Source of the DNA: Candidatus Lambdaproteobacteria bacterium RIFOXYD2_FULL_56_26
GTDB taxonomy: Bacteria > SAR324 > XYD2-FULL-50-16
Length of the DNA stretch: 50,864 nucleotides
Direction of reading: 5' to 3'
Assembly: GCA_001783715.1 (NCBI GenBank)
Contig: MFNF01000008.1
Location: 1 to 50,864, forward strand
This document shows, in pieces, positions 22,366 to 35,979 of this stretch. Under the pieces are notes generated by a model. That model was given only the letters and a program-made list of their open reading frames with translations, ran no database searches and was not told the origin of the DNA. The position numbers and the translations under genes are program-made. Position 1 is the first letter of the stretch, and each line of letters starts with the position of its first letter.

Positions 22366-22675
22366 CTCGCCCCGCTCCCCTGGAGGCACCTTGGGTGCTC
22401 CTGGAGGTTTCGTTTGGCTTAAAAACCCCCGTATTGTCTGACCCTTTGACGGTTCCGGTTAAAAGTGGGTGATCTACCCCGCCGCCAAGCGGCTGCGGGG
22501 CAACCATACCGAAATATGACAGGCTCGGATTAACTGCAAAGTGCCTTGGTCCAACAAGCTGGAGACCAAGTTTTGTTTTGGTCCGGCGGAGTATGGACTT
22601 GGCTACAAAACTCTCGGTTTGTTAACGAACCGGTGGAGCGAACGGGGGACTAGGTACAGTTCAGGAGAAGACAAA
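22366..22675. other. Non-coding region with two hairpins between cheZ and the arr-like gene
   Basis: These 310 bases hold no supported gene. An imperfect stem GGAGGCACC/GGTGCTCC with one bulge lies at about 22381-22401 and may end the cheZ transcript. A strong nested stem at 22477-22500 has CCCC and GGGG outer arms and GCCGC-CAA-GCGGC inside, but no T-tract. TTGACG at 22446-22451 is a possible -35 without a good -10. AGGAG at 22663-22667 is the ribosome-binding site of the next gene. Confidence 0.4.
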
Positions 22676-23398
22676 TTGAGCAAAGACTTGGGGGGTAAAA
22701 ACGACGATTCCAAGAAGCGGTTCTACCACGGGACCAGGGCTGAACTGAAGCCTGGAGACCAGATCTTGCCCAGCTTTCCCAGGAGCGGCGGCGTGGGGAA
22801 CGAGACCAAGACTCGGGTTTACCTGTCCCCAAATCTAGATGAAGCGGTTTGGGATGCCGAGCTCTCAGAGGGTGCAGGTCCCAGCAGGGTCTATCAGGTG
22901 GAAGTGACCGGTCCGGTGGGGAATGTCTCCGACTTTCCGGGCGAGCAGTCTCCAGGCCATCCCTCCATGTCCTGCTTTTCCTGCCAGCCGCTGCGAGTGG
23001 TTGGCGAAGTCACCGAGTGGCTTTTTTATCACGGAACAAAAGCCGACCTGAAGCCTGGGGAGTTGATTACGCCGGGGCAAACCCCAAACTTCGGCCAGAA
23101 GGTCAGGACCTCAATCCATGTCTATCTGACCCGTACCTTGGATGCTGCCATTTGGGGGGCGGAACTGGCCGCCGGTGAAGGTCGAGGCAGAGTTTATACC
23201 GTGCAACCGATTGGCCCGATTGAAGAGGACCCCAACCTTACGGACAAAAAATTTCGAGGGAATCCAACAAAATCTTTCCGGTCCCGTGAACCTCTGAAGG
23301 TTACCGGCGAGGTCACCCATTGGAAGGGGCACAACCAAGAAACAATCAAAGCCATGAAGGATGGGTTTCGACTTGGCCTCGAACCGATAGACGATTGA
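22676..23398 (+). CDS. Tandem-domain rifampin ADP-ribosyltransferase (Arr)-like protein
   Basis: Arr enzymes inactivate rifamycins by NAD-dependent ADP-ribosylation. This 240-residue protein contains two complete Arr-like domains, about residues 16-115 and 117-219, each starting FYHGT. Domain 2 has the canonical set: His119, Tyr150 in VYLT, Asp185 in EEDPNLTD, and GAELAAGEGRGRVY. Domain 1 keeps His18 and Tyr49, but Val84 replaces the catalytic Asp and the EEDPNLTD segment is lost, so it is probably not catalytic. Single-domain Arr is about 140 residues. The TTG at 22676 is chosen because AGGAG lies eight bases upstream; the frame is open to a GTG at 22541. Confidence 0.85.
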   Translation: MSKDLGGKNDDSKKRFYHGTRAELKPGDQILPSFPRSGGVGNETKTRVYLSPNLDEAVWDAELSEGAGPSRVYQVEVTGPVGNVSDFPGEQSPGHPSMSCFSCQPLRVVGEVTEWLFYHGTKADLKPGELITPGQTPNFGQKVRTSIHVYLTRTLDAAIWGAELAAGEGRGRVYTVQPIGPIEEDPNLTDKKFRGNPTKSFRSREPLKVTGEVTHWKGHNQETIKAMKDGFRLGLEPIDD

Positions 23399-24276: not shown

Positions 24277-24846
24277 CTATTCCAAAACCTGGATCAAGGT
24301 GAAGGCTCCCCTCAGGTCACCTTCCTTGTAGCCTCTCGCCAAGTCGTTGGGGTACAGGGCCTTGATCTTGTCTTCCACCTCCGGGGCAATCACCGCTCCG
24401 TGGCAAGCGAGGCACCTGGGCTTGGTTCCGATGGCTTTGAGGTACCGGAAGGTTTTTTTGCCCCCTTGGGTGATAAATTCCCCTTTCTCCAGTTCCTCCA
24501 GAGCGACCCCCGAGGCCTTCTGGCGCTCAAACTCCTCCATCATCGCCCGTTCCCAGGGGTCCGGCTGGTTTTTGGGGTTTCTGAGTTTGAGGCTGGTCCG
24601 GCCCAAGGTCACGCCCTGTTTGGAGGCTGCTTCGGTCACCTTGCCGGCATTGAGGTTGCAGGTCCCGATTGCCGCCACCGGCCCGCCTTGGGACATGGCG
24701 GCCCACATTTGCACCTGTAGGTCGTCGGAAAGCCCTTGGAAGAGGGTCCGGGACTGAAGGATCTTCTGGTCCAGCTCTTGGGCAAAAAGCGGTGCCGAAC
24801 CAACCAATAACGCCAACAACAGAAGGGGAACAAAGGGTTTGACCAT
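24277..24846 (-). CDS. Periplasmic DUF3365 (Tll0287-like) c-type haem protein
   Basis: This is a 189-residue exported protein. A signal peptide (FVPLLLLALLVGSAPLFA) is followed by the DUF3365 pattern AIGTCNLNAGKVTEAAS, then LGRTSLKLRNPKNQPDPWE and YLKAIGTKPRCLACHG. The single haem-attachment motif Cys145-x-x-Cys148-His149 implies covalent haem in the periplasm, as in Tll0287-like redox sensor domains. It lies 33 bases after the MMPL exporter gene on the same strand, so it may be the last gene of that operon. The ATG at 24846 is chosen because it starts at the signal peptide. Confidence 0.85.
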   Translation of the reverse strand: MVKPFVPLLLLALLVGSAPLFAQELDQKILQSRTLFQGLSDDLQVQMWAAMSQGGPVAAIGTCNLNAGKVTEAASKQGVTLGRTSLKLRNPKNQPDPWERAMMEEFERQKASGVALEELEKGEFITQGGKKTFRYLKAIGTKPRCLACHGAVIAPEVEDKIKALYPNDLARGYKEGDLRGAFTLIQVLE

Positions 24847-24879
24847 CTTGGACTCAGGGCTGAGGTTGCTGCCCAAAGT

Positions 24880-27099
24880 TTAGGGCAATGGTCCCATTCG
24901 ATCAATCTTCCTTTTTTGGGCCAAAGGGGAAAAAAACCAGGCCACCCCCACCCCCACCCCGGCGGCTCGGCCCAGGGAGACCAAGGCCCCGGTTTGGGAA
25001 AAGGCCAACAGCCCAAAGGCCAACAGGGTGGTCACCGCCGAAAGCCACACCGCCACCAGCGTCTTGGCGGGGGTTTCCTGGCTTTCCGCAAAAAAGATCC
25101 CATAATCCACCCCAATCCCCAAAACCAACAACAGCCCCAGCAGGTCAAAAAGGTTGATCCCCTGGCCCAGCGCCCCGAGCAGTCCCAGGACGGCCAGGGC
25201 GGCCAACAAGGGGGGCAGGAGGGTCTTGGAGCCTTGGGTCCAACCGTAGCGGTGGAGCAAAAACAGGGCGATCCCCAGGTAGGCAATCCCCAAGGCCCAG
25301 CCGATCCGCTCCCGGTAGCGGCCCAACAACTTGGGTGTGTCCCGGCCCGGATCGATCCAATGGACTCCGGGGCCAACCCAACCTTGGGCCTCTTGGGCAG
25401 TGAGGGCCTTGAGCGGAACCAAGGGAGCGTACCACCGGCCCCCGGACTGCCCAAAGAGCCCCGGCAGGGGCAGTTCCTTCAGGTCCAGCGGCCTCCCTTG
25501 CGCCAACGTGCGTCCAAAGTCCTCCAGGGTTTTGTCCTCAAAGCCCAGTTTGGCAAGTTCGGTCTTAAGTCCGGCTTCCCAAGCCGAAGCCAGCGCCTGT
25601 CGCTGCCGCTCTTGGGCCTCCGGTCCGCTCCAAATTCGGGCCAAGGACCAAGCGGGGAGGGTTTGGGACAAGGCCTCCAAGCGGCCGACCAAAGCCTCCA
25701 GGTCCGGGGCCTCCACCAAAAAAAAAGACCCGAACGAAAGCTCAGGGAAGTAAGCCTGGACCAATTTTTCTTCGGCCAACAACCGGGCTGGTCGGCTGGC
25801 CAAGCGTTCCAGCTCGTCGTTGCCGTAGAGCTTGGGCAACTGGGTCAGGGAGAGCAACGTAAGCAAGAGCCCCAAAGCCTTGGGCCTGAGTTTGGGGTAA
25901 AAAGCCAAGGAACCTTGGGCCCAATCCAGCACCCAAGGACGGTCCACCAAAGGCCCCGGCCCCAGCCGCAACCGAACCCAAAGGTAGGCCCCCAAAAGGC
26001 CCAAGCCGGAAAACAGCGCCACCTGCCGCAGTCCGGGAAAGGGAGCGAGCCCCAGGGCCAAGTAGCTGCAAAGGCTGGTCAAAAATCCCCATTTTAGGGC
26101 CGGGTACAGGTTTTTCAGCGGACCTTGAGGCGGGTAACGGGTATGGACCAGCCCGTGGAACCCATAATCCACCGCCACCCCGACCAAACTGCCCCCAAAA
26201 ACCAAGGTCAACAGGTGCAATTCCCCAAAGGCCGCCAGCACCCCCGCCAGCCCCAAGGTCAGCCCGGCCAAGACCGGCAGCAGCCCGGCCCACAGATCCC
26301 GTCGGTTGCCAAAGGCGAGCCCCAACAACAAAACCACCCCCAACAAGGAACCCCCGCCGATCCAGTTCATCTCCATCCGGGCCTGCTGGGCCGCTTGGTT
26401 GGCATATCGGCTCACCCCGGTCCAGGCCAGTTGGGAGCCCGGCGACATGGTGGCGGCCCAGGCGGACTCAACGGCTTTGGGGTCCGCTTCGGTCGCCTCA
26501 AAGTCAAAGGCGCTGTGGCTCAGCTCCAGCACAAAGCCCAGGTGGGACCGGTCAAACTCTCTCAGCCCCGAAGCGAGGGGCAGCAAGGGGGCCAGTTCCC
26601 GAAGCAGGGAGGGCAACAGCAGCAAGGGGTCTTGGGCCGGGTGGCTGAAAAAGCTGGCCAGGGGGCTGTAAAGTTGGCGGCGGGTCTGTTCCAATAGGTC
26701 CGGCCCAGGGTTGGGGCCAAACAGGGCTTGGGAAGCCGGGGCGGAAAGCTTGGCCCAAGGGTGGGTCAAGTAAAGCTCCTCCAACCCCGCAGGGCTTTTG
26801 GGGGGAAGAAACCGGCCGGTTTCCAAAAGGGCGGCCAAAAATCTCCGGCTCTCTGGGGCCAACTCTTTGGGCTCTGTGGCAGAAACCAAAAAATACACCC
26901 GTTTGGCCGCCGGTTCGGCCAAATCGGCCACCGCCTGTTCCAGCCCCTCTTCCCGCTCCGAAGGCGGCAACAAGGTGACGATCCGGGTTTCAAGGGTCCC
27001 TGGTCGGCTCAAGGCCCACAGGTCGTACCCCAACAGGACCCACAACAGCCCCAAAAACAAACGGCCCCAAATCCGGTGGCCTGGCCCCCAGAGGTTCAT
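24880..27099 (-). CDS. MMPL/RND-type exporter of the aryl-polyene gene-cluster class
   Basis: This is a 739-residue membrane protein. It has one N-terminal transmembrane helix, a periplasmic loop of about 190 residues, five helices near residues 240-400, a second periplasmic loop and a final group of helices with GIGVDYGIFFAES. That GxxVDYG motif, also seen as GVAVDYGFHG in the first half, is the RND helix-4 signature. Such proteins accompany LolA-like carriers in aryl-polyene and flexirubin clusters and are thought to move the lipid product from the inner membrane. It abuts the LolA-like gene with no gap. Confidence 0.9.
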   Translation of the reverse strand: MNLWGPGHRIWGRLFLGLLWVLLGYDLWALSRPGTLETRIVTLLPPSEREEGLEQAVADLAEPAAKRVYFLVSATEPKELAPESRRFLAALLETGRFLPPKSPAGLEELYLTHPWAKLSAPASQALFGPNPGPDLLEQTRRQLYSPLASFFSHPAQDPLLLLPSLLRELAPLLPLASGLREFDRSHLGFVLELSHSAFDFEATEADPKAVESAWAATMSPGSQLAWTGVSRYANQAAQQARMEMNWIGGGSLLGVVLLLGLAFGNRRDLWAGLLPVLAGLTLGLAGVLAAFGELHLLTLVFGGSLVGVAVDYGFHGLVHTRYPPQGPLKNLYPALKWGFLTSLCSYLALGLAPFPGLRQVALFSGLGLLGAYLWVRLRLGPGPLVDRPWVLDWAQGSLAFYPKLRPKALGLLLTLLSLTQLPKLYGNDELERLASRPARLLAEEKLVQAYFPELSFGSFFLVEAPDLEALVGRLEALSQTLPAWSLARIWSGPEAQERQRQALASAWEAGLKTELAKLGFEDKTLEDFGRTLAQGRPLDLKELPLPGLFGQSGGRWYAPLVPLKALTAQEAQGWVGPGVHWIDPGRDTPKLLGRYRERIGWALGIAYLGIALFLLHRYGWTQGSKTLLPPLLAALAVLGLLGALGQGINLFDLLGLLLVLGIGVDYGIFFAESQETPAKTLVAVWLSAVTTLLAFGLLAFSQTGALVSLGRAAGVGVGVAWFFSPLAQKRKIDRMGPLP

Positions 27100-27777
27100 T
27101 TAAGGTATAAAGTCACGGCGAGGCTCCAGGAAAAAAAACTCCGTTTCCCCGAAACTGTCCTTGTACCTTTGGAAGTCGGCCAACCGGATGGACATCACGG
27201 TTTTGTCTCGCAAAAACAGCCGCACCCAATAGATCACCCCCCGGCTGCCCCGGATGCGGAACTCTGCGACATTGGCGGCCAGCACCCCGGACTGGGGTAC
27301 CACCTTGATCTCCCAAAGCTCCTCTTTGACCCCAAAGTAAAGGGCCGCTTCGGAGCCCAGCTTGGCCATCGAACCTTGGGAGAATTCCTGGAGTTTCCGG
27401 TAGAACCCCGGATCGTCCCCGACCCGCTCCTTGCCTTGGCTGCTCAGGTGAAAAACCCCGTCCTGGTTGACCCACAGCGCCTCTTTGTAGGGACTCAAGG
27501 TCTGCCACAACAGCCCCTTTTCCACATCAAAGACCACCCGGCCCTCCGAGTTGACCGGCCGCTCGATGCCCAGTTTGTACACCGAAAGGATAAACCTAGC
27601 CTGGAAGGCGGCCTCTTGGGACAAGATTGCGTTGAGTTCCTTGAGTTCCTTGGGCGGATTTTCATAGTTGACCAGCGCCCCCGGAAAGTCCTCGGGGGGC
27701 GGCAGTTCGGCATGGCAGGGGCCGGAGAGACCCAAGAGCCCCACCAGTATCCACAGCCAAAACTCTTTTTGCCTCAT
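27100..27777 (-). CDS. LolA-like outer-membrane lipid carrier
   Basis: This is a 225-residue periplasmic protein. A signal peptide (FWLWILVGLLGLSGPCHA) is followed by the half-open beta-barrel pattern of LolA relatives: ARFILSVYKLG, GRVVFDVEKGLLWQT, then LWVNQDGVFHLS and a late RGVIYWVRLFL strand. Cluster-associated LolA-like proteins are presumed to shuttle the polyene lipid across the periplasm. The ATG at 27777 is preceded by GGAGGAAGG and overlaps the ammonia-lyase stop by four bases. The exporter gene follows directly. Confidence 0.87.
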   Translation of the reverse strand: MRQKEFWLWILVGLLGLSGPCHAELPPPEDFPGALVNYENPPKELKELNAILSQEAAFQARFILSVYKLGIERPVNSEGRVVFDVEKGLLWQTLSPYKEALWVNQDGVFHLSSQGKERVGDDPGFYRKLQEFSQGSMAKLGSEAALYFGVKEELWEIKVVPQSGVLAANVAEFRIRGSRGVIYWVRLFLRDKTVMSIRLADFQRYKDSFGETEFFFLEPRRDFIP

Positions 27778-29333
27778 CCTTCCTCCGGCCCCAAGTCCAA
27801 GGCCCCATCGGCAATCAGCGCCACCAAGCGCCGCAATTCGGGCTCCAAGGGTCGGTCTTCGGTGACCAGGGGCAACAGGGATTCCAAGGGGGCCACAAAC
27901 CGTTCCAACCGCTCGGTCAAAGCCGCCCCTTGCCCCATCGCCCGGCGCAGCCGCACCCCTTGGAGGGCGGCCACCAAGGTTCCAGCCAATACCTGTTCGG
28001 TCAGCTCCAAGATCCGCATTGCATCCCGAGCGGCAATGGTGCCCATGCTGACCTTGTCCTGGTTGTGACATTCGGTGGACCGGGAAAACACCGAAGCGGG
28101 CATGGTTAATTTGAGCGCCTCGGCGGTCCAGGCGGAGACGGCGATTTGCAGCGCCTTGAGCCCGTGGTTGATGGTTTCCCGGCCCAAGGCGGCACCGGAA
28201 AGATTGGCCGGTAGGCCGTGGTTCATCCGTTCGTCAACCAGCAGGGCCATCTGCCGGTCCAAAAGGTCCGCCACGTTGGCCACGGCGGTTTTGAGGCTGT
28301 CCATCACAAAGGCGATGTGTCCGCCGTAAAAATTCCCGCCGTGCAAGAATTCCTGGGCTTCCACATCCACCAAAGGGTTGTCGTTGGCACTGTTCAGTTC
28401 AATCTCGATCCAAGAGGCAAACTGCTCCAAACCGTCAGCCAAAACCCCGATCACATGGGGAGCGCAGCGAAGGCTGTAGGGGTCTTGCAGCCGTTTGGGG
28501 CCTTGGAGCGGGGCTTTTGGACGGTAACCCAGGTCCAGAGCGATCCGGGCGGCCACCTTGCCTTGGGCAGGGTGGGGTTTGGCAGCAAAGATTCGGGGGT
28601 CAAAGTGGGCCGGGTTGCCCAGGTAGGCGACCACGTTGAGGGCGGTGATCTTCCCGGCCAGCCGCACCACAAACTCGGCCCGCTGCCAAACCAATGCGGC
28701 CAGTGCGGTCATCACGCTGGTGCCGTTCATCATCGAAAGGGCTTCTTTGGGCATCAGCCGCAAAGGAGCCAGCCCCAGTTCCTGCAACACTTGGGCAGTA
28801 GGCCTCAGGTTCCCCCGGTAGAGTACCTCCCGTTCCCCAACCAGCACGGCGGCAAGGTAAGACAGCGGGGTCAGGTCCCCCGAAGCGCCCACCGAACCCT
28901 CTTCGGGGATTCGGGGCCAAACCCCGTGGTTGTACAGGCTGCACAGCCGCTCCAACAACTCCCAACGGACCCCCGAATCCCCCTTGGCCAAGGAAATCAA
29001 CCGGGCCAAGAGCACCGCCTTGGCCGCCTTGGGCACCAAGTCCTTGCCCAGCCCACAACCGTGAAACCGCACCAGATGCAAGGGCAATTCTTCCACCAAG
29101 CTCGGCTCCACCACCCGGCCCACACTGGCCCCATAGCCGGTGGTCACCCCGTAGATTTCCTTGTGCTCCCGCCAAGCGGCCGCCACAAACTCGGCGGCCC
29201 CTTCGATCCTGCTGCGGTAGTCCGGGTCGCCGGTGAGCTGGACCGATAGCGACTCATTGCCCAAAGCCCACAAAAAGTCGGCCAACGGGACTGGCCGGTC
29301 GGAAAGAGTCAACATCTGAAGCTTTTGGTTCAT
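27774..29333 (-). CDS. MIO-type aromatic amino acid ammonia-lyase (HAL/TAL/PAL family)
   Basis: This family eliminates ammonia from His, Phe or Tyr. The 519-residue protein has the Ala150-Ser151-Gly152 triad that cyclises to the MIO cofactor (GSVGASGDLTPL), the catalytic Tyr in YGVTTGYGAS, and NSANDNPLVD. The substrate-selectivity pair aligned to His-Leu in tyrosine lyases and Ser-His in histidine lyases reads Phe90-His91. No hut genes are near. In aryl-polyene-type clusters such a lyase supplies the cinnamate or coumarate starter, which is the likely role here. It precedes the LolA-like gene with a four-base overlap. Confidence 0.92.
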   Translation of the reverse strand: MNQKLQMLTLSDRPVPLADFLWALGNESLSVQLTGDPDYRSRIEGAAEFVAAAWREHKEIYGVTTGYGASVGRVVEPSLVEELPLHLVRFHGCGLGKDLVPKAAKAVLLARLISLAKGDSGVRWELLERLCSLYNHGVWPRIPEEGSVGASGDLTPLSYLAAVLVGEREVLYRGNLRPTAQVLQELGLAPLRLMPKEALSMMNGTSVMTALAALVWQRAEFVVRLAGKITALNVVAYLGNPAHFDPRIFAAKPHPAQGKVAARIALDLGYRPKAPLQGPKRLQDPYSLRCAPHVIGVLADGLEQFASWIEIELNSANDNPLVDVEAQEFLHGGNFYGGHIAFVMDSLKTAVANVADLLDRQMALLVDERMNHGLPANLSGAALGRETINHGLKALQIAVSAWTAEALKLTMPASVFSRSTECHNQDKVSMGTIAARDAMRILELTEQVLAGTLVAALQGVRLRRAMGQGAALTERLERFVAPLESLLPLVTEDRPLEPELRRLVALIADGALDLGPEEG

Positions 29334-29376
29334 GGTAGCAGGTACTTTGGTTTTGGGCCAGTTTAGGGGATTGCGG

Positions 29377-30129
29377 TCAATGGGGCAAGGGTGTCAAAAA
29401 GTAGCCTTGGGCCAACAAACGGGGCAACAAAACCGCCAAGACCTTGCTGGCCGCAACCCCAGGGTGGGGGCCATCGTGGAGCAAAAAAACCGCCCCCGGT
29501 TCCACTCGGGCTAGGATTCTTTCCACCAGCTTTTCGAGGTTTGTCTCCCGCCAGTCTTGGGTCCGAAAACTCCAGCCCAAGGCGGTCATCCCGGTGGCCT
29601 CCAGGGCAGCGCCCAAGTGCGGATTGGTCAGGCCCACCGGCGGGCGGAAGTACCTTGGCACAACACCCAGGGACTCCAGCAGTTGGTTGGTGGGGGCAAT
29701 TTCCCTTTGCCAACCGGGGGCATTGGAAAAGTTGATCCAGCCGCTGTGGCTCCAGCTGTGGTTGCCCACCTCGTGGCCCCCCTGGACCATCGCCCGGACC
29801 AATTCGGGTTGGTCCTTAACCTTTTGGCCGACCACAAAAAAACTGGCCTTGGCCCCGTACTGCTCCAACAGCCCCAAGACCTGGGTCGTTTCCTCCCCGT
29901 TGGGGCCGTCGTCAAAGGTTAGGTAAAGCTCTTTGCCTCGGGGTTCCAGGCGGTTGAGGGTCTCCACAAAATAACCTCGTTTGGGGTCCCAAACCCCCCA
30001 GACAAAATCCAGCCCCAAGACCAGCAAAACCAAGCCCGCCACCCAGGGGCCGTAGCCGGTCCCCCACAAGCCCAAGGAGAGGATCAGCCCGCCCAAGGCC
30101 AGCCGCCAACTGCGCTCGAAGGGCCTCAC
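29377..30129 (-). CDS. Membrane-anchored NodB-type polysaccharide deacetylase
   Basis: This is a 250-residue protein. Two hydrophobic segments fill the first 45 residues, followed by a NodB domain with motif 1 LTFDDGPN, motif 2 HEVGNHSWSH, motif 3 RYFRPPVG and the late FLLHDGPHP. These supply the catalytic Asp, the metal-binding Asp-His-His set and the C-terminal His. The usual substrates are N-acetylated amino sugars. The GTG at 30129 overlaps the upstream stop (GTGA) and follows GGGAGG, so it is preferred to a longer start inside the preceding gene. Its place in the operon suggests it removes an acetyl group from a sugar head group. Confidence 0.9.
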   Translation of the reverse strand: MRPFERSWRLALGGLILSLGLWGTGYGPWVAGLVLLVLGLDFVWGVWDPKRGYFVETLNRLEPRGKELYLTFDDGPNGEETTQVLGLLEQYGAKASFFVVGQKVKDQPELVRAMVQGGHEVGNHSWSHSGWINFSNAPGWQREIAPTNQLLESLGVVPRYFRPPVGLTNPHLGAALEATGMTALGWSFRTQDWRETNLEKLVERILARVEPGAVFLLHDGPHPGVAASKVLAVLLPRLLAQGYFLTPLPH

Positions 30130-31793
30130 GGGGCCTCCCAGAAGGGAAAGAAGTTGGTCCATTGGTCGGGACGGGCGCAAACCGCTTCTTCCAAGGCGCT
30201 GAGGTATTGTTGGAGATACCCCTCCAGGGCCTGGGTCCGGTTGGCTTTGGGCAGGATCACCTGTTCGGCTAGCTTGCTGATCCGCACCTCAAACCGTCCC
30301 TCCCCGGTTTTGAGGGCAAAGACGGTGTACACCGGACATTCCAGCAGAGAGGCCAGGATCAAGGGGCCATGGCCAAAAGGAGCGGAGCGGCCCAAAAAGG
30401 GAAGCATCGAATACCGGTCCTTGGCCCCAAAGGTCAGGCGGTCCCCCAGCATCCCCAAAAACTCCCCTTTTTCGATCACCTCCTTGAGGGCAAAGATACT
30501 GCCCAGGTCCAGCTTGCTCAGTTCAAAGATGTGGGCAACCGCCTCGGGGTTGATCTTTTTGAGCACCTCCATCACCGCTTGGGCATTTTGGTTGAACATG
30601 ATCGCATGGACCGGCTTTTGTTGTTCCTTGAGGCTCAAGGCTTTGAGGAAGTCGGTACTGCCCAGGTGGGCACTCAAAAAAATTGCGCCCTGGGGCCGAG
30701 CCTTGATTTCCTCCATCCACTCCTGGCCAACCACCTCCACTTCGTACCCTTGGGTTCGGTTCCGCCAGAAGGCGAAGCGGTCCAAGAGCAGGTCCCCAAA
30801 CCGGTAATACTGCCGCCACACCAAGCCGCCTGGGGAAGCATGGTCTAAGGCGGACCTGGGGTCTTGGGCGACCTGGGCCAAAAACTCCCCCACCGCCCTT
30901 CGTCCCCTTTGGTCGGAGAGGTAATAAAACCAAATCACCGGGACCATCACCCCCCTGCTGAGCCGCGGTCCCAGGGCCTCAAACACCCGGATCGCCAGAT
31001 GGACCCAAAAGGTGTTGGTCCTTTCCTTCCTTTCAAACCACTCCGGGCCCCCTTTGGGTCCAAACAGCCTGCGCAACAGGGTGTAGGGGGACAAGGCCAG
31101 GCTCCGTAGGCTCAAAGCCAGGTGGGAACGGGCGACCAAGAGGTTGTCGGACCAATAGTGGTAGTTGGAAAGATTGCCTTCCAGGTACTTGACCTTCGTG
31201 GGCAGGCTGATCACCTCCAACCCCTCCCAAAACAACCAAACCGCAATCTCCGGGTCAAAGTCCATCCGGTTGCCCAGGGAGTGCCGGTCCAAAAGCCGCA
31301 CCGTTGGCCCCAGCGGGTAGGCCCGAAAGCCACATAGACCGTCTTTGATGGCCAAAGAAAGGCACTGGAGCCGGATCACCCAAGTAGTGATCTGGCGGCC
31401 AATCAATCTGGCCCTGGGGGCGGTTTGGTCAAAAACCGGCTGTCCCAGCACCAGCGCCTTGGGGTGCGAGGTCAGGGCCTCCAAAAACCGGGGCAGGTCC
31501 TCCAGGTTGTGCTGCCCGTCCGCATCCATCTGGATCGCATGGGTAAAGCCCAGCCGCTTGACCTCCCGCAATCCGTCCTTGACCGCTGCCCCCTTGCCGC
31601 CGTTTTCGGGCCGGGTCAGCAGGGTCAAAAACTTGTGTTCCAAGGCCAGGGCGGCAAACACCTCCTTGGCCTCTGGGCTGGAGCCGTCGTCCACCATCAA
31701 CACCGGCAGGCCGTAGGGCTTGAGGCCCTTTATGACCGCTCCGATCGGGTCTTTGTGGTTGTAATTGGGGATCACGACACAAGGGCGCATCAT
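30126..31793 (-). CDS. Fused GT2 glycosyltransferase and LPLAT acyltransferase
   Basis: This is a 555-residue two-domain protein. The N-terminal GT2 domain (about 1-240) has CVVIPNYNH, MVDDGSS and the metal-binding QMDADGQHNLED, like dolichol-phosphate-type transferases. The C-terminal domain from about residue 270 is of the LPLAT/HtrB class, with the HX4D motif in SAHLGSTDF and a later LGDRLTFG. The same pairing is seen in aryl-polyene clusters, where it is thought to build the sugar-acyl membrane anchor. The ATG at 31793 overlaps the ligase stop (ATGA), and GGAG lies upstream. Confidence 0.9.
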   Translation of the reverse strand: MMRPCVVIPNYNHKDPIGAVIKGLKPYGLPVLMVDDGSSPEAKEVFAALALEHKFLTLLTRPENGGKGAAVKDGLREVKRLGFTHAIQMDADGQHNLEDLPRFLEALTSHPKALVLGQPVFDQTAPRARLIGRQITTWVIRLQCLSLAIKDGLCGFRAYPLGPTVRLLDRHSLGNRMDFDPEIAVWLFWEGLEVISLPTKVKYLEGNLSNYHYWSDNLLVARSHLALSLRSLALSPYTLLRRLFGPKGGPEWFERKERTNTFWVHLAIRVFEALGPRLSRGVMVPVIWFYYLSDQRGRRAVGEFLAQVAQDPRSALDHASPGGLVWRQYYRFGDLLLDRFAFWRNRTQGYEVEVVGQEWMEEIKARPQGAIFLSAHLGSTDFLKALSLKEQQKPVHAIMFNQNAQAVMEVLKKINPEAVAHIFELSKLDLGSIFALKEVIEKGEFLGMLGDRLTFGAKDRYSMLPFLGRSAPFGHGPLILASLLECPVYTVFALKTGEGRFEVRISKLAEQVILPKANRTQALEGYLQQYLSALEEAVCARPDQWTNFFPFWEAP

Positions 31794-33502
31794 CGCTCCA
31801 GTTCCAAAATTCCCGATCCGCACCGGGTCGAGCCTTGGGTATAAACAAAGGACCAGCGGCCCGGTCCGGCCAACAAAATCTGCAACTCACAAACCGCACC
31901 GGGCAAAAGGGGAGCGCTGAACTTGAGCCCAGAGACCCTCTTGACCGCCACCAAACGGCCCAGCGCTTGGTTCAAGTACTGGTGAACCCAAAAAACCTCG
32001 ACCACCCCCGGCAGGACCGGGGCTTGGTCAAAGTGGCCCTGAAAGTAGGCCAGATGGTTGGGGACCCGGAGCCTGACCCACAGTTCCTCAGGCTTGGACC
32101 GGCGGCCCAGGATTTGGGGCAACCTAGGGTGGAGCAAAAGTTCGGTCATCCTACTGCGGTCCGGTTTGCCCTGGGGGTCCAAGGGAAGTTGGGGCAACAG
32201 CAAAAACCGGCGGGGGACCAGCAGCTCCTCAAAACTTTGCCGCAGGTGGTCCCGCAGAACCTGGGTCAAGGCCCGTTCCCCTGTTTGGTCCACCTGCTCC
32301 CACCCGGCCTGGGTCAAACCCAGCACCCCGGCCAACCGGACCCGTCCGGGCGGGCTTTCCAGGGCGGTCAACCAGGCCTGGGCAACCTCGGGGCGCTCCA
32401 AGAGCTTCGCTTCCATCCGGGGCAGGCTGACCCGCTTTTCCTCGATCTTGGCCACCCGGTCCGCCCGGCCCAAAAGCTCAAACCCCAAGGGCCGCAACTC
32501 CACCAAGTCGCCCATCAAAAACCACTCGGCCTGTCCCTCCAAATTCACATAAGGGGAGCGTACCAACAACTGCCCCTGGTCCGACCGAACCTCCACGCCG
32601 GGCAACGGGGTCCAAAGGCGTTCGGGTTGGCCTTCTTGGCGGCAGCGGTAGGCGACCCCTCCGGTTTCGGTGGACCCAAAGATTTCCACCGGAGCCCGGC
32701 CCCAACCTTGGGCGACCGAAAGGGCCGTCTCCCGGTCCAAAGGGCCGCCGGAACTCAGACACAGCCGCACCTTGTCGCCAAAGTCGGCCAAGCTGACCAA
32801 CTGGGGAAACCGTTTGAGGTGTGCCGGGCCACTGACCAAGACCGAAGGTCCCACCATGTCCAAGGCCAGCTCTTCGGGGTAAAGGTGGGCGAACCTCGCA
32901 AAGGGGCGGCCGGTCACCAAGGGCCAGAGCAGGCGGAACAAAAGGCCATAGATGTGTTGGTGGGAAACCGTGGCATAGACCCTGGCCCCCTTTGTGCCTT
33001 CCCCCCAAAGGGATTCTTGGGCCAAAAGTTCGGTCTCCAGCTGGTCCAGGGTTTTTTCCACCCTCTTGGGCGAACCGGTGCTGCCCGAGGTTACCAGGAC
33101 CAAAGCGGGGGTTCCGGGGCAAAGGAGGCGGGGCACTGGCACAGCGCCGCTGGAGAGTTGCCGCAAGTCCAGGTGCAGGCAACGGGCGGGCGGGTCAAAA
33201 TCACTCACCAGCCCCACCGTTTGGGGAGCCAACTCGGCCAAGGTTTCGGGCAAATCGTTGGGCGGCAGGACCACAGTCTTGCGGTTCAACCACAAGGCCA
33301 ACAAACCCAGCAAAAAGAGGCCGCTGTCTTTGGCAAACAGCAGGTAGGCCCCAGGGGGGGCCGCCGCCACCTTGTCGCTCAAGGGACCCAAGAGGCCCAA
33401 AAACCCACCCCAGTCCAGCGTTTGGTCCTTCCAAAAGCACAGGGGCCGGTCGGCGGCAGGGGGACTGAGGAGCAGTCGAGAAAGCGGGGCAGGTCGGTCC
33501 AA
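31790..33502 (-). CDS. Fused AMP-ligase and ApeI-like hotdog dehydratase
   Basis: This is a 570-residue protein. Residues 1 to about 450 form an ANL acyl-adenylating domain with LVTSGSTGSPKRVEKT, GSTETGGVAYR, GDLVEL and GRADRVAKIEEKRV. From about residue 465 a hotdog domain follows with YFQGHFDQAPVLPGVVEVFW, the ApeI/FabZ-like motif. The FabZ catalytic Glu position is Phe here. In aryl-polyene systems the ligase (ApeH) loads the aryl starter on the carrier protein, and the ApeI hotdog acts in dehydration. Here the two are one polypeptide. The TTG start has no strong ribosome-binding site, so translation may be coupled to the carrier-protein gene. Confidence 0.88.
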   Translation of the reverse strand: MDRPAPLSRLLLSPPAADRPLCFWKDQTLDWGGFLGLLGPLSDKVAAAPPGAYLLFAKDSGLFLLGLLALWLNRKTVVLPPNDLPETLAELAPQTVGLVSDFDPPARCLHLDLRQLSSGAVPVPRLLCPGTPALVLVTSGSTGSPKRVEKTLDQLETELLAQESLWGEGTKGARVYATVSHQHIYGLLFRLLWPLVTGRPFARFAHLYPEELALDMVGPSVLVSGPAHLKRFPQLVSLADFGDKVRLCLSSGGPLDRETALSVAQGWGRAPVEIFGSTETGGVAYRCRQEGQPERLWTPLPGVEVRSDQGQLLVRSPYVNLEGQAEWFLMGDLVELRPLGFELLGRADRVAKIEEKRVSLPRMEAKLLERPEVAQAWLTALESPPGRVRLAGVLGLTQAGWEQVDQTGERALTQVLRDHLRQSFEELLVPRRFLLLPQLPLDPQGKPDRSRMTELLLHPRLPQILGRRSKPEELWVRLRVPNHLAYFQGHFDQAPVLPGVVEVFWVHQYLNQALGRLVAVKRVSGLKFSAPLLPGAVCELQILLAGPGRWSFVYTQGSTRCGSGILELER

Positions 33503-33508
33503 AGGGGG

Positions 33509-33778
33509 TCAGCTGGTCTGGTGGGAGGCCACCAAACGAGCCAGACTGGCAACGGAGAAAAAATGTTCCTTGTTTTCCTCAGCGTCCCCTTGGAGTTTTA
33601 GACCGTAACTTTTTTGCAGGGCAATGCCCAATTCCAGCGCATCAATCGAATCCAAACCCAGCCCTTCCCCAAACAAAGGTTCGTCACTTTCGATTTCTTC
33701 GGGGCTCAGGTCGGGCAGGTCCAAGGTTTGGATGATCAGCCGCTTTAATTCCTGTTCCAACTCGCCAAAAGCATTCAT
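33509..33778 (-). CDS. Acyl carrier protein of the polyene cluster
   Basis: This is an 89-residue acyl carrier protein with the phosphopantetheine site Ser44 in GLGLDSIDALELGIAL. It is four-helical and acidic, with LFGEGLGLDSIDALE matching the ApeE/ApeF type. It would carry the aryl starter and growing polyene. It precedes the ligase gene by six bases and follows the chain-length-factor-like gene after 167 bases, in which I see no second carrier protein. Aryl-polyene clusters usually encode two. Confidence 0.92.
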   Translation of the reverse strand: MNAFGELEQELKRLIIQTLDLPDLSPEEIESDEPLFGEGLGLDSIDALELGIALQKSYGLKLQGDAEENKEHFFSVASLARLVASHQTS

Positions 33779-33945
33779 GGGCGCACGATCTCTAGGGGGC
33801 CTCGGTGTCCCAGGCCGGTGATTTCACTACAAAGAAGGGGGATTCTCGCCTCTTTTTTTCCACTTAGGCAAGCCCAGATTCCTTATCCCCTGTCCCCGCT
33901 CCCGGCCTTGTTCCGGGGGAGAAAATCACCCCCAAGGGGCCGGTG

Positions 33946-34668
33946 TCATAACGCCGATCCGGCCCAGGTCAACTCCAGTGGCCCCCCCGGTCCGGGCAAA
34001 AGGAAGGCACCCAAAGGGGCCTGGAGCCACAAAAGCAGGGGTACCAAGACGGCGGCCCCAAACTCCGAAACCTGGGGCGGAGGGGGACCGGGGAGAAACT
34101 TGACCTCCAGACCCGTCCCTGCGCCCAGCAGCAGGCCCAGCCCATAAGGGCCGTCCTGGCAATGGAGCGGCGGATGGAGCCCCGCCGGGACCGGTTCATC
34201 GGCAAACAGCAGGGCCACCTTGCGTCCCTCGTAGCGACAGAGAAGCCCCAGCGCCTCCACCAGCCCCGCACCCAAACTGCCCACCCCCGCCGAAACGGCT
34301 CCGGCCGGTTGGCGGTTGTCCAAGGCCAGACTCACCCGGCCCACCGGGCTGTTGTGCACCGAATGGCTGAACCCAGCGGGGCTCAAGACCTCACCTCGGG
34401 TCAACTGGTCGAGCAAAAGGGCGGTAGTGGTGATCTCTCCATGTTGGCTGGCCAAGAGCAGCAAGGCTTCCCGCATCACCGTGGGCGGAGCCAAACGGTG
34501 GGCGAGGTCCAAAGCCAGCTTGCCGACCCAAGAGACCCTCCGTCTGGCCAGGGGAGGCAAAAACTCCAGGCTCGGCTCCGGGGCCGGGCCTTCTGGCCTC
34601 ACCCAACCGGCCAAGCGGCTGGGGTCGTTGCAGCCGGGCAAAAAAAAGCACCAAGAGATCAGTTTCAT
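33946..34668 (-). CDS. Beta-ketoacyl synthase-like protein, ApeC/chain-length-factor type
   Basis: This is a 240-residue protein matching the short ketosynthase-like family (PF13723-type). Visible landmarks are MREALLLLASQHGEITTTALLL, the FSHSVHNSPVGRVSLAL segment where full ketosynthases place their active-site region, and GAVSAGVGSLGAGLVEALGLL. No Cys nucleophile in the TACSS-type motif is present, so it is probably a chain-length factor and not catalytic. In known aryl-polyene systems ApeC pairs with a ketosynthase (ApeO), which is absent from this window. The start is a plain ATG with no clear ribosome-binding site. Confidence 0.82.
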   Translation of the reverse strand: MKLISWCFFLPGCNDPSRLAGWVRPEGPAPEPSLEFLPPLARRRVSWVGKLALDLAHRLAPPTVMREALLLLASQHGEITTTALLLDQLTRGEVLSPAGFSHSVHNSPVGRVSLALDNRQPAGAVSAGVGSLGAGLVEALGLLCRYEGRKVALLFADEPVPAGLHPPLHCQDGPYGLGLLLGAGTGLEVKFLPGPPPPQVSEFGAAVLVPLLLWLQAPLGAFLLPGPGGPLELTWAGSAL

Positions 34669-34703: not shown

Positions 34704-34827
34704 CCTCCCAAGGAGATTACCGGAGGCCCCTGCTCTAAGGAGAAATCCTTGTAAAATCAAATTGGGCTTGGCGGAAGCAGGGTTTTTGTTTAGCTTGGAT
34801 TGACCTGAAAAAACCGATGGAGTTTTG

Positions 34828-35979
34828 ATGTTTCAATGGCCCAAAACCGGCCTGACCTTGGCCCTGCTGTTTTGCTTGACCGTCCAAGGTTTCACCGCCC
34901 AAGGACAGTTTTTGGTTCCCGAACGGCGAAGGCTCTTTGAAAACCGGCAGGAAAACGTTTACATGGTTATCCCCGCCGTGGCTTCTCTGCCGGGATTGGG
35001 GGTGTTTGCCGGGGTGTTGGGCTCCTTTTCCAACATCATGGGCACCGGAGTGGACGCAGCGGTCACCGAAGCCCGCACCTTTTCGGGCAGCTCGGACATC
35101 CGGGTTTCCGCCTACGCCTTGCGGGAAGTCCCGCTCTTTGTCCCCGGCCTGACTGTGGAATATTGGTTTGGAGACATCCAGTTCACCGACTATTTTTCTT
35201 ACCTCCCTGGCCGAGACTCGCCCAACTACCTGATTCCCTACACCGGAAAATTTAAATACTACTTCTTCAGTCCCTCCTACCGGCTTTGGGAGCGCAGGAT
35301 CGAGATCAATTACAATCTGGTGTTTTTTAAGGGCTACAGCATCGACAGCAGCGGCCAAGACACCCTGCAAGGTGCGCACAGCGCCAACGGCAGGCTGACC
35401 TTGGACCTGACCGACGACTGGGTGGACCCCGCCAAAGGGGTCCGGCTGTCCTACTCCACCAGCCTCACCGCCCCCCATTCAAGCCCTTTGGGGACCGACT
35501 CCAGCAGCAGCTCGGCGCTCCGTTCGGACCTCCAAACCAAAAGCTACCACGCCGGGTTTTACCTACCCGTTTACGACCGGACCACCTTGGCGCTGTACCA
35601 GGAACTCTCCGAGACCTGGGGCAAAGATGCCGGGAATGCCCAGGGGTTCGGCGGTGAGGCCCGGTTGCGGGGCTACCCGGCCGGACGTTGGACCGACCGT
35701 TTCGCCCAAACCGGAATCGCCGAGGTTCGTTACACCTTGCCCTACAATTTTGAAATCGAAAGTCTTTTGGTCCACGGGCACCTTGACGGGGTCCAACTGG
35801 CGGCTTTTGCCGAACAAGGCCAAGTTTCTCCAACCCGTGATTCCAGTTTGTGGTCCAACCAACACCAAAGTTTTGGGGTTGGTGCTAGACTCTTGATTGA
35901 CGCCATCATTCTGCGGCTGGACCTCGCCACCGCCGATGAAGGCCCCCAAACCCACTTGACGATCAACCATGCCTTTTAA
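34828..35979 (+). CDS. Outer-membrane beta-barrel protein, Omp85/BamA C-terminal type
   Basis: This is a 383-residue exported protein. A signal peptide (TGLTLALLFCLTVQGFTAQG) is followed by amphipathic strands throughout and a terminal Phe (TINHAF), as in BamA-inserted barrels. GGEARLRGYPAGRWTD carries the LRGY variant of the VRGF/Y motif on the loop-6 hairpin of Omp85 proteins. POTRA domains are absent, so this is a barrel-only member (bacterial surface antigen, PF01103-like). The ATG at 34828 follows GGAG. It is divergent from the polyene operon and overlaps the lipoprotein gene by 11 bases. Confidence 0.85.
   Translation: MFQWPKTGLTLALLFCLTVQGFTAQGQFLVPERRRLFENRQENVYMVIPAVASLPGLGVFAGVLGSFSNIMGTGVDAAVTEARTFSGSSDIRVSAYALREVPLFVPGLTVEYWFGDIQFTDYFSYLPGRDSPNYLIPYTGKFKYYFFSPSYRLWERRIEINYNLVFFKGYSIDSSGQDTLQGAHSANGRLTLDLTDDWVDPAKGVRLSYSTSLTAPHSSPLGTDSSSSSALRSDLQTKSYHAGFYLPVYDRTTLALYQELSETWGKDAGNAQGFGGEARLRGYPAGRWTDRFAQTGIAEVRYTLPYNFEIESLLVHGHLDGVQLAAFAEQGQVSPTRDSSLWSNQHQSFGVGARLLIDAIILRLDLATADEGPQTHLTINHAF

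Follow-up and report, generated by a model that had tools for sequence, protein, structure and literature searches.

Aryl polyene (APE) lipids, a known kind of bacterial pigment, are made in Escherichia coli CFT073 by the products of the apeA-R cluster (PMC8253772; L069). Acinetobacter baumannii has a single APE cluster with ApeR and two acyl carrier proteins (ACPs). Its ApeI is fused to ApeH, and ApeI and ApeP form a heterodimer with one active site (PMC8041823), while ApeO-ApeC is a ketosynthase-chain-length factor (KS-CLF) heterodimer that makes the full-length polyene alone (PMC8358021). The flxA-Y genes of Chitinophaga pinensis, which serve the flexirubin pathway, start from an aromatic ammonia-lyase and also code for a polysaccharide deacetylase, LolA, a glycosyltransferase and an exporter (PMC3992019). 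Here we describe an operon of Candidatus Lambdaproteobacteria bacterium RIFOXYD2_FULL_56_26 (G000), whose draft genome comprises 3.08 Mb in 68 contigs and is 97% complete. The window analysed, 50,864 bases, is the entire contig C8 (MFNF01000008.1). Its operon very probably codes for the half of an APE-lipid pathway that provides starter, carrier, attachment and export, the elongation half of which would be the apeO-apeP-apeQ operon at C57:120361-122695. This reduced, split and apparently complete system arranges a known pathway in a new way, and no report of split aryl polyene clusters was found in the open-access library searched.

The operon in the window

The gene run from 34668 to 24277 is a compact operon with all genes on the minus strand:

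33946-34668, minus: apeC-type chain-length factor, a half-length ketosynthase and non-catalytic partner of ApeO (PF13723, 122 bits, 4e-35)
33509-33778, minus: apeE-type acyl carrier protein, the starter-loading ACP (PF00550; NCBIfam PRK09184, 96.5 bits, cut-off 70)
31790-33502, minus: apeH-apeI, aryl-acid adenylating ligase fused at its C-terminus to an ApeI dehydratase subunit (PF00501, PF22818)
30126-31793, minus: apeJ, GT2 glycosyltransferase fused to an LpxL-type acyltransferase (PF00535, PF03279 Lip_A_acyltrans)
29377-30162, minus, reading frame open from 30180: polysaccharide deacetylase of NodB type (PF01522, 7e-31)
27774-29333, minus: aromatic amino-acid ammonia-lyase (PF00221, 510 bits, 6e-153)
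27100-27777, minus: apeL, LolA-like periplasmic carrier (E. coli ApeL, 2e-4; fold)
24880-27099, minus: apeM, MMPL/RND-type exporter (E. coli ApeM, 30% over 585 amino acids, 4e-49; HpnN-like, 4e-15)
24277-24876, minus: Tll0287-like, heme-binding-type periplasmic protein with CxxCH (PF11845, 1e-24)

A gap of 167 bp separates apeC from the ACP gene, and the junctions downstream of the latter are mostly short or overlapping. The start of apeL overlaps the lyase stop (ATGA), and the apeJ frame, open from 31823, has an ATG at 31793. ApeC is the sole PF13723 match in the genome; it is 29% identical to E. coli ApeC (3e-19) and has 6qsp_B as its best match in the Protein Data Bank (8e-15). The ACP is 56% identical to E. 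coli ApeE, which also matches PRK09184, versus 31% to ApeF. The ligase matches E. coli ApeH (2e-34) and ApeI (2e-10); its ApeI domain reaches 28.7 bits on PF22818 against a cut-off of 28.5 and retains the GHF histidine in the alignment. A second ApeI-like match, at C25, stays below the cut-off (26.8 bits) and is probably FabZ. ApeJ is 36% identical to its E. coli counterpart over 559 amino acids (2e-124), and an AlphaFold model of ApeL (mean pLDDT 68) matches LolA structures with a best E of 1e-6.

The order C, E, H-I, J, L, M is that of the E. coli CFT073 cluster for the shared genes, an agreement with apeC-apeM that exceeds chance by far. The fusion of H and I, separate in E. coli, is shared with A. 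baumannii. Relative to E. coli, a polysaccharide deacetylase and an aromatic ammonia-lyase are added, inserted between apeJ and apeL. The deacetylase translation has TFDDG, HxxxH and LLHD motifs, and the E. coli ape cluster has no such gene. Both additions, together with the LolA-like, glycosyltransferase and exporter genes, recall the C. pinensis cluster, but gene families and order here follow ape.

A sequence-only reading had called this run an aryl-polyene-like operon with lyase, ligase, ACP, chain-length-factor-like, GT2/acyltransferase, LolA-like and MMPL genes, and it proposed a comparison of gene order with known clusters. These genes are confirmed on the minus strand between 24277 and 34668, and the comparison bears the reading out. 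It overlooked the deacetylase, and the last gene of the run, Tll0287-like, is not among the known ape genes. Its statement that elongation enzymes are missing is correct for a catalytic ketosynthase, a ketoreductase (KR) and a stand-alone dehydratase, none of which is present in the operon, and for the single ACP found there; it did not take account of the ApeI dehydratase subunit fused to the ligase.

The elongation operon and a probable split pathway

A ketosynthase search of the genome gave a match at C57:120622, within a tight plus-strand apeO-apeP-apeQ operon (C57:120361-122695; L012) with gene overlaps of 10 and 4 bp:

C57:120361-121563, plus: apeO ketosynthase (tree and NCBIfam PRK09185)
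C57:121554-121973, plus: apeP hot-dog dehydratase (Pfam PF22817 ApeP-like, 28.0 against a cut-off of 27)
C57:121970-122695, plus: apeQ ketoreductase (tree, ApeQ clade, support 98/96)

In the tree the ketosynthase clusters with E. coli ApeO and the proteins in the ApeO position of other clusters (support 98/99), outside ApeR, FabF and FabB. It scores 464 bits on PRK09185 (cut-off 407), compared to 556 for E. coli ApeO, 207 for ApeR and 233 for the FabF of this genome, and the alignment shows its Cys-His-His to be present. The aligned ApeP keeps the glutamate and lacks the GHF histidine of ApeI. The option that the polyene is made by enzymes encoded elsewhere, one of two left by the sequence-only reading, is thus supported by genes in the same genome: of those it proposed to search for, ApeO, ApeP and ApeQ are on C57, and no ApeR was found.

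As the ApeI domain with its histidine has no partner in the window, and the C57 ApeP has the glutamate and no histidine, each locus is the source of one subunit of each heteromer: ApeO and ApeP on C57, ApeC and ApeI in the window. Both obligate heteromers are divided in this way between distant operons, which can therefore function only if they are expressed together. Across the 145 genomes surveyed, the carriers of strong ApeC (E <1e-25) are the very seven that carry strong ApeO (E <1e-60), namely G000, G001, G014, G020, G024, G046 and G143. The chance of this full co-occurrence is 1 in 2.3e11, a figure that makes it look more improbable than it is because the seven carriers are partly related. 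The G+C content at third codon positions (GC3) is 0.76-0.77 in the window operon, the short ACP gene excepted, and 0.78 in the C57 apeO, against 0.51 in the type II polyketide synthase (PKS) cluster of contig C21.

The trio stops 9,641 bases short of the C57 end, and on C8 a stretch of 16,196 bases lies between the apeC start and the contig end. Regardless of contig order, a distance of at least 25.8 kb must therefore separate the two loci, with unrelated genes in between. The elongation genes are thus not directly joined to the operon, a finding that would have counted against the sequence-only reading had they been. The neighbours of the trio are a gamma-glutamyltransferase-like gene (identified by eye) and a chemotaxis-receptor gene, neither of them ape. 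A single cluster is the usual arrangement, though not a mechanistic requirement; here the genes lie on two contigs, the break relative to E. coli falling between M/N and O, with O, P and Q still in order at the second locus.

In G020 and G046, of the same class, O-P-Q-R-C-E-H-I-J-L-M are joined. G024 has the same order across broken contigs; there J and L are separated by the ammonia-lyase gene and a thioesterase-like gene. G001 belongs to the family of G000 but to another genus, and is the sole further family member with strong ApeC. Its C-E-HI-J-L-M genes and its O-P genes lie on different contigs (L057, L058), each half being flanked by unrelated genes. G001 differs from the present case by the lack of a KR beside O-P, of the lyase and of the deacetylase, and by its other neighbours. 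As G001 has the same reduced split, the layout seems to be common to the family and not the product of an assembly fault, in a phylum survey that is small (52 genomes). In G143, from a distant phylum, ApeC, ApeO and ApeR are found on three contigs (L063, L064, L080), with ApeO beside MMPL and LolA-like genes. This is suggestive of another, possibly independent split, but ApeC there is close to a contig end. The arrangement may therefore not be unique to the genome studied here. Cluster-based mining would underestimate the number of split, reduced APE pathways.

The gene identities, their order, the split, the heteromer logic and the co-occurrence, all observed here, are best read as a functional, streamlined, split pathway whose activity, co-expression, cinnamate-type starter, anchor and product are predicted. 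The ammonia-lyase would supply cinnamate or 4-coumarate, which ApeH would load onto ApeE. ApeO from C57 with ApeC from the window would add malonyl units. With ApeF lost, the carrier of malonyl is presumably ApeE or the housekeeping AcpP. Reduction by ApeQ (C57) and dehydration by the heteromer of ApeP (C57) with the ApeH-fused ApeI (window), with no enoyl reduction, would yield conjugated double bonds. Attachment of the chain to a sugar-lipid anchor would fall to ApeJ, probably together with the deacetylase, and ApeM and ApeL would transport the product to the outer membrane.

The lyase has the methylidene-imidazolone (MIO) motif ASG, the selectivity dyad Phe-His and Gln instead of Glu at the second motif. 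By the motif rule of PMC3992019 this Gln fits a tyrosine or phenylalanine ammonia-lyase (TAL or PAL) rather than a histidine ammonia-lyase, and histidine is an unlikely substrate. The His expected of a TAL at the first dyad position is replaced by Phe; since the TAL dyad is missing even from FlxA, whose TAL activity is proven (PMC3992019), the dyad does not separate tyrosine from phenylalanine, and both are compatible. The enzyme is 58-59% identical to lyases in the APE clusters L060 and L019 (59% for L019, from Planctomycetota), and in G024 too the lyase gene is found between J and L. With a deacetylase encoded beside ApeJ, the anchor may be an amino sugar. There is a slim chance that the split is itself functional: separate regulation would let the window operon also export short or non-elongated aryl acyl groups which, on an amino-sugar anchor provided via the deacetylase, would give an amide-linked aryl lipid not yet described.

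Missing genes and alternative readings

ApeR was not found in the genome, its best match there being the housekeeping FabF at 35%. This C1 protein was rejected as ApeR (618 bits on the fabF model; 326 on PRK09116, cut-off 470). ApeF, the second ACP, has no genome match above the cut-off, and ApeD none with the E. coli protein as query, a weak negative that had no positive control. ApeB, ApeG, ApeK and ApeN are absent from the window operon; the genome-wide search was not made for these four. Several points weigh against a functional split pathway. ApeG, ApeK and ApeN are among the genes missing from the operon, and in E. coli deletion of apeK leads to immature intermediates while an apeN insertion mutant is unpigmented, possibly by a polar effect (PMC8253772). 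The window proteins other than ApeE and ApeJ are diverged (ApeC at 29%; ApeI and ApeP barely over their Pfam cut-offs), and in a draft of 68 contigs the distance between the loci is a lower bound only. In E. coli, however, the APE lipid is retained without apeR, and strains without apeF or apeD are partially pigmented (PMC8253772); the gene set present is thus plausibly sufficient, malonyl being carried by ApeE or AcpP. Together the two loci (C, E, H-I, J, L, M, O, P, Q) approach a minimal in vivo set and offer a test of the true need for each ape gene.

Decay of an APE pathway scattered by rearrangement would account for the separated loci, for the missing ApeR, ApeF and ApeD and for the lack of ApeG, ApeK and ApeN in the operon. 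It is nevertheless very unlikely, as the reading frames are all intact, catalytic motifs are retained, GC3 is high and uniform, G001, of another genus, has the same reduced order, and ApeR is dispensable in E. coli. We give equally little credence to the second option of the sequence-only reading, a non-polyene lipid with the aryl-acyl group placed directly on a sugar lipid and the C57 trio serving another purpose. The window operon alone has no catalytic ketosynthase, and its lyase, ligase, acyltransferase and exporter could process a bare cinnamoyl group. However, ApeC and the ApeI subunit would be useless without ApeO and ApeP, both encoded elsewhere in the genome, and ApeC and ApeO co-occur in 7/7 genomes. 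With the elongation set present, this option has no positive support.

Still less probable is a supply of elongation enzymes from C21 instead of C57. The C21 cluster has a full set (KS, CLF-like protein, KR, FabZ-like dehydratase and ACP) and its own MMPL and LolA-like genes, but its ketosynthase is FabF-like and falls outside the ApeO and ApeR clades. It was rejected as the missing machinery on the tree, its foreign composition (GC3 0.51) and its possession of its own CLF-like protein and ACP.

DarB, the enzyme to be expected in a dialkylresorcinol pathway, is of ketosynthase III type. A flexirubin-type aryl polyene ester of dialkylresorcinol, as in Bacteroidetes, is the least probable reading and was rejected: flexirubin clusters also have a tyrosine ammonia-lyase, polysaccharide deacetylase, LolA, glycosyltransferase and exporter (PMC3992019), but the ketosynthase III (KAS III) C-terminal domain PF08541 has no match genome-wide (controls positive in 11/14 genomes), so that there is no DarB-like enzyme and such an ester is unlikely, and the window lyase scores 322 bits on the FlxA model (cut-off 700).

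Neighbouring genes and other lipid loci

Tll0287-like CxxCH sensor-type domains adjoin both APE loci, as the stand-alone protein in the window (24277-24876) and in the C57 chemotaxis receptor (L012 10747-12291), where the domain is just under the Pfam cut-off. Divergent from apeC, at window positions 34825-35979, lies a gene for an Omp85-family-like outer membrane protein with a possible link to export. The window frame 22541-23398 codes, as judged by eye, for a rifampin ADP-ribosyltransferase-like motif (FYHGTRAELKPG...) that is present twice in tandem.

The C21 locus (C21:22791-34186, minus strand; L010 792-12187) is a second type II PKS or fatty acid synthase cluster, with genes for an ACP, FabZ-like dehydratase, FabF-like ketosynthase, KR, Old Yellow Enzyme-type reductase, methyltransferase, LolA_like protein, porin-like protein, MMPL protein and radical S-adenosylmethionine enzyme. 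Its CLF-like protein is ketosynthase-like and has lost the active Cys and His. Its ketosynthase gene has a GC3 of 0.51 versus 0.7-0.78 elsewhere, which makes it probable that the cluster was acquired; a transposase is encoded nearby.

The FabH-type KAS III C-terminal domain is missing from this 97% complete genome, and a distant ketosynthase of 634 amino acids is encoded on C68 (L013 7110-9014). This protein, which is similar in size to FabY of Pseudomonas, may start fatty acid synthesis in place of FabH. Large multidomain PKS genes are present at C14:1-19900 (L011) and on C27 (L015), the C14 product combining ketosynthase-acyltransferase with repeated ACPs and resembling a polyunsaturated fatty acid synthase.

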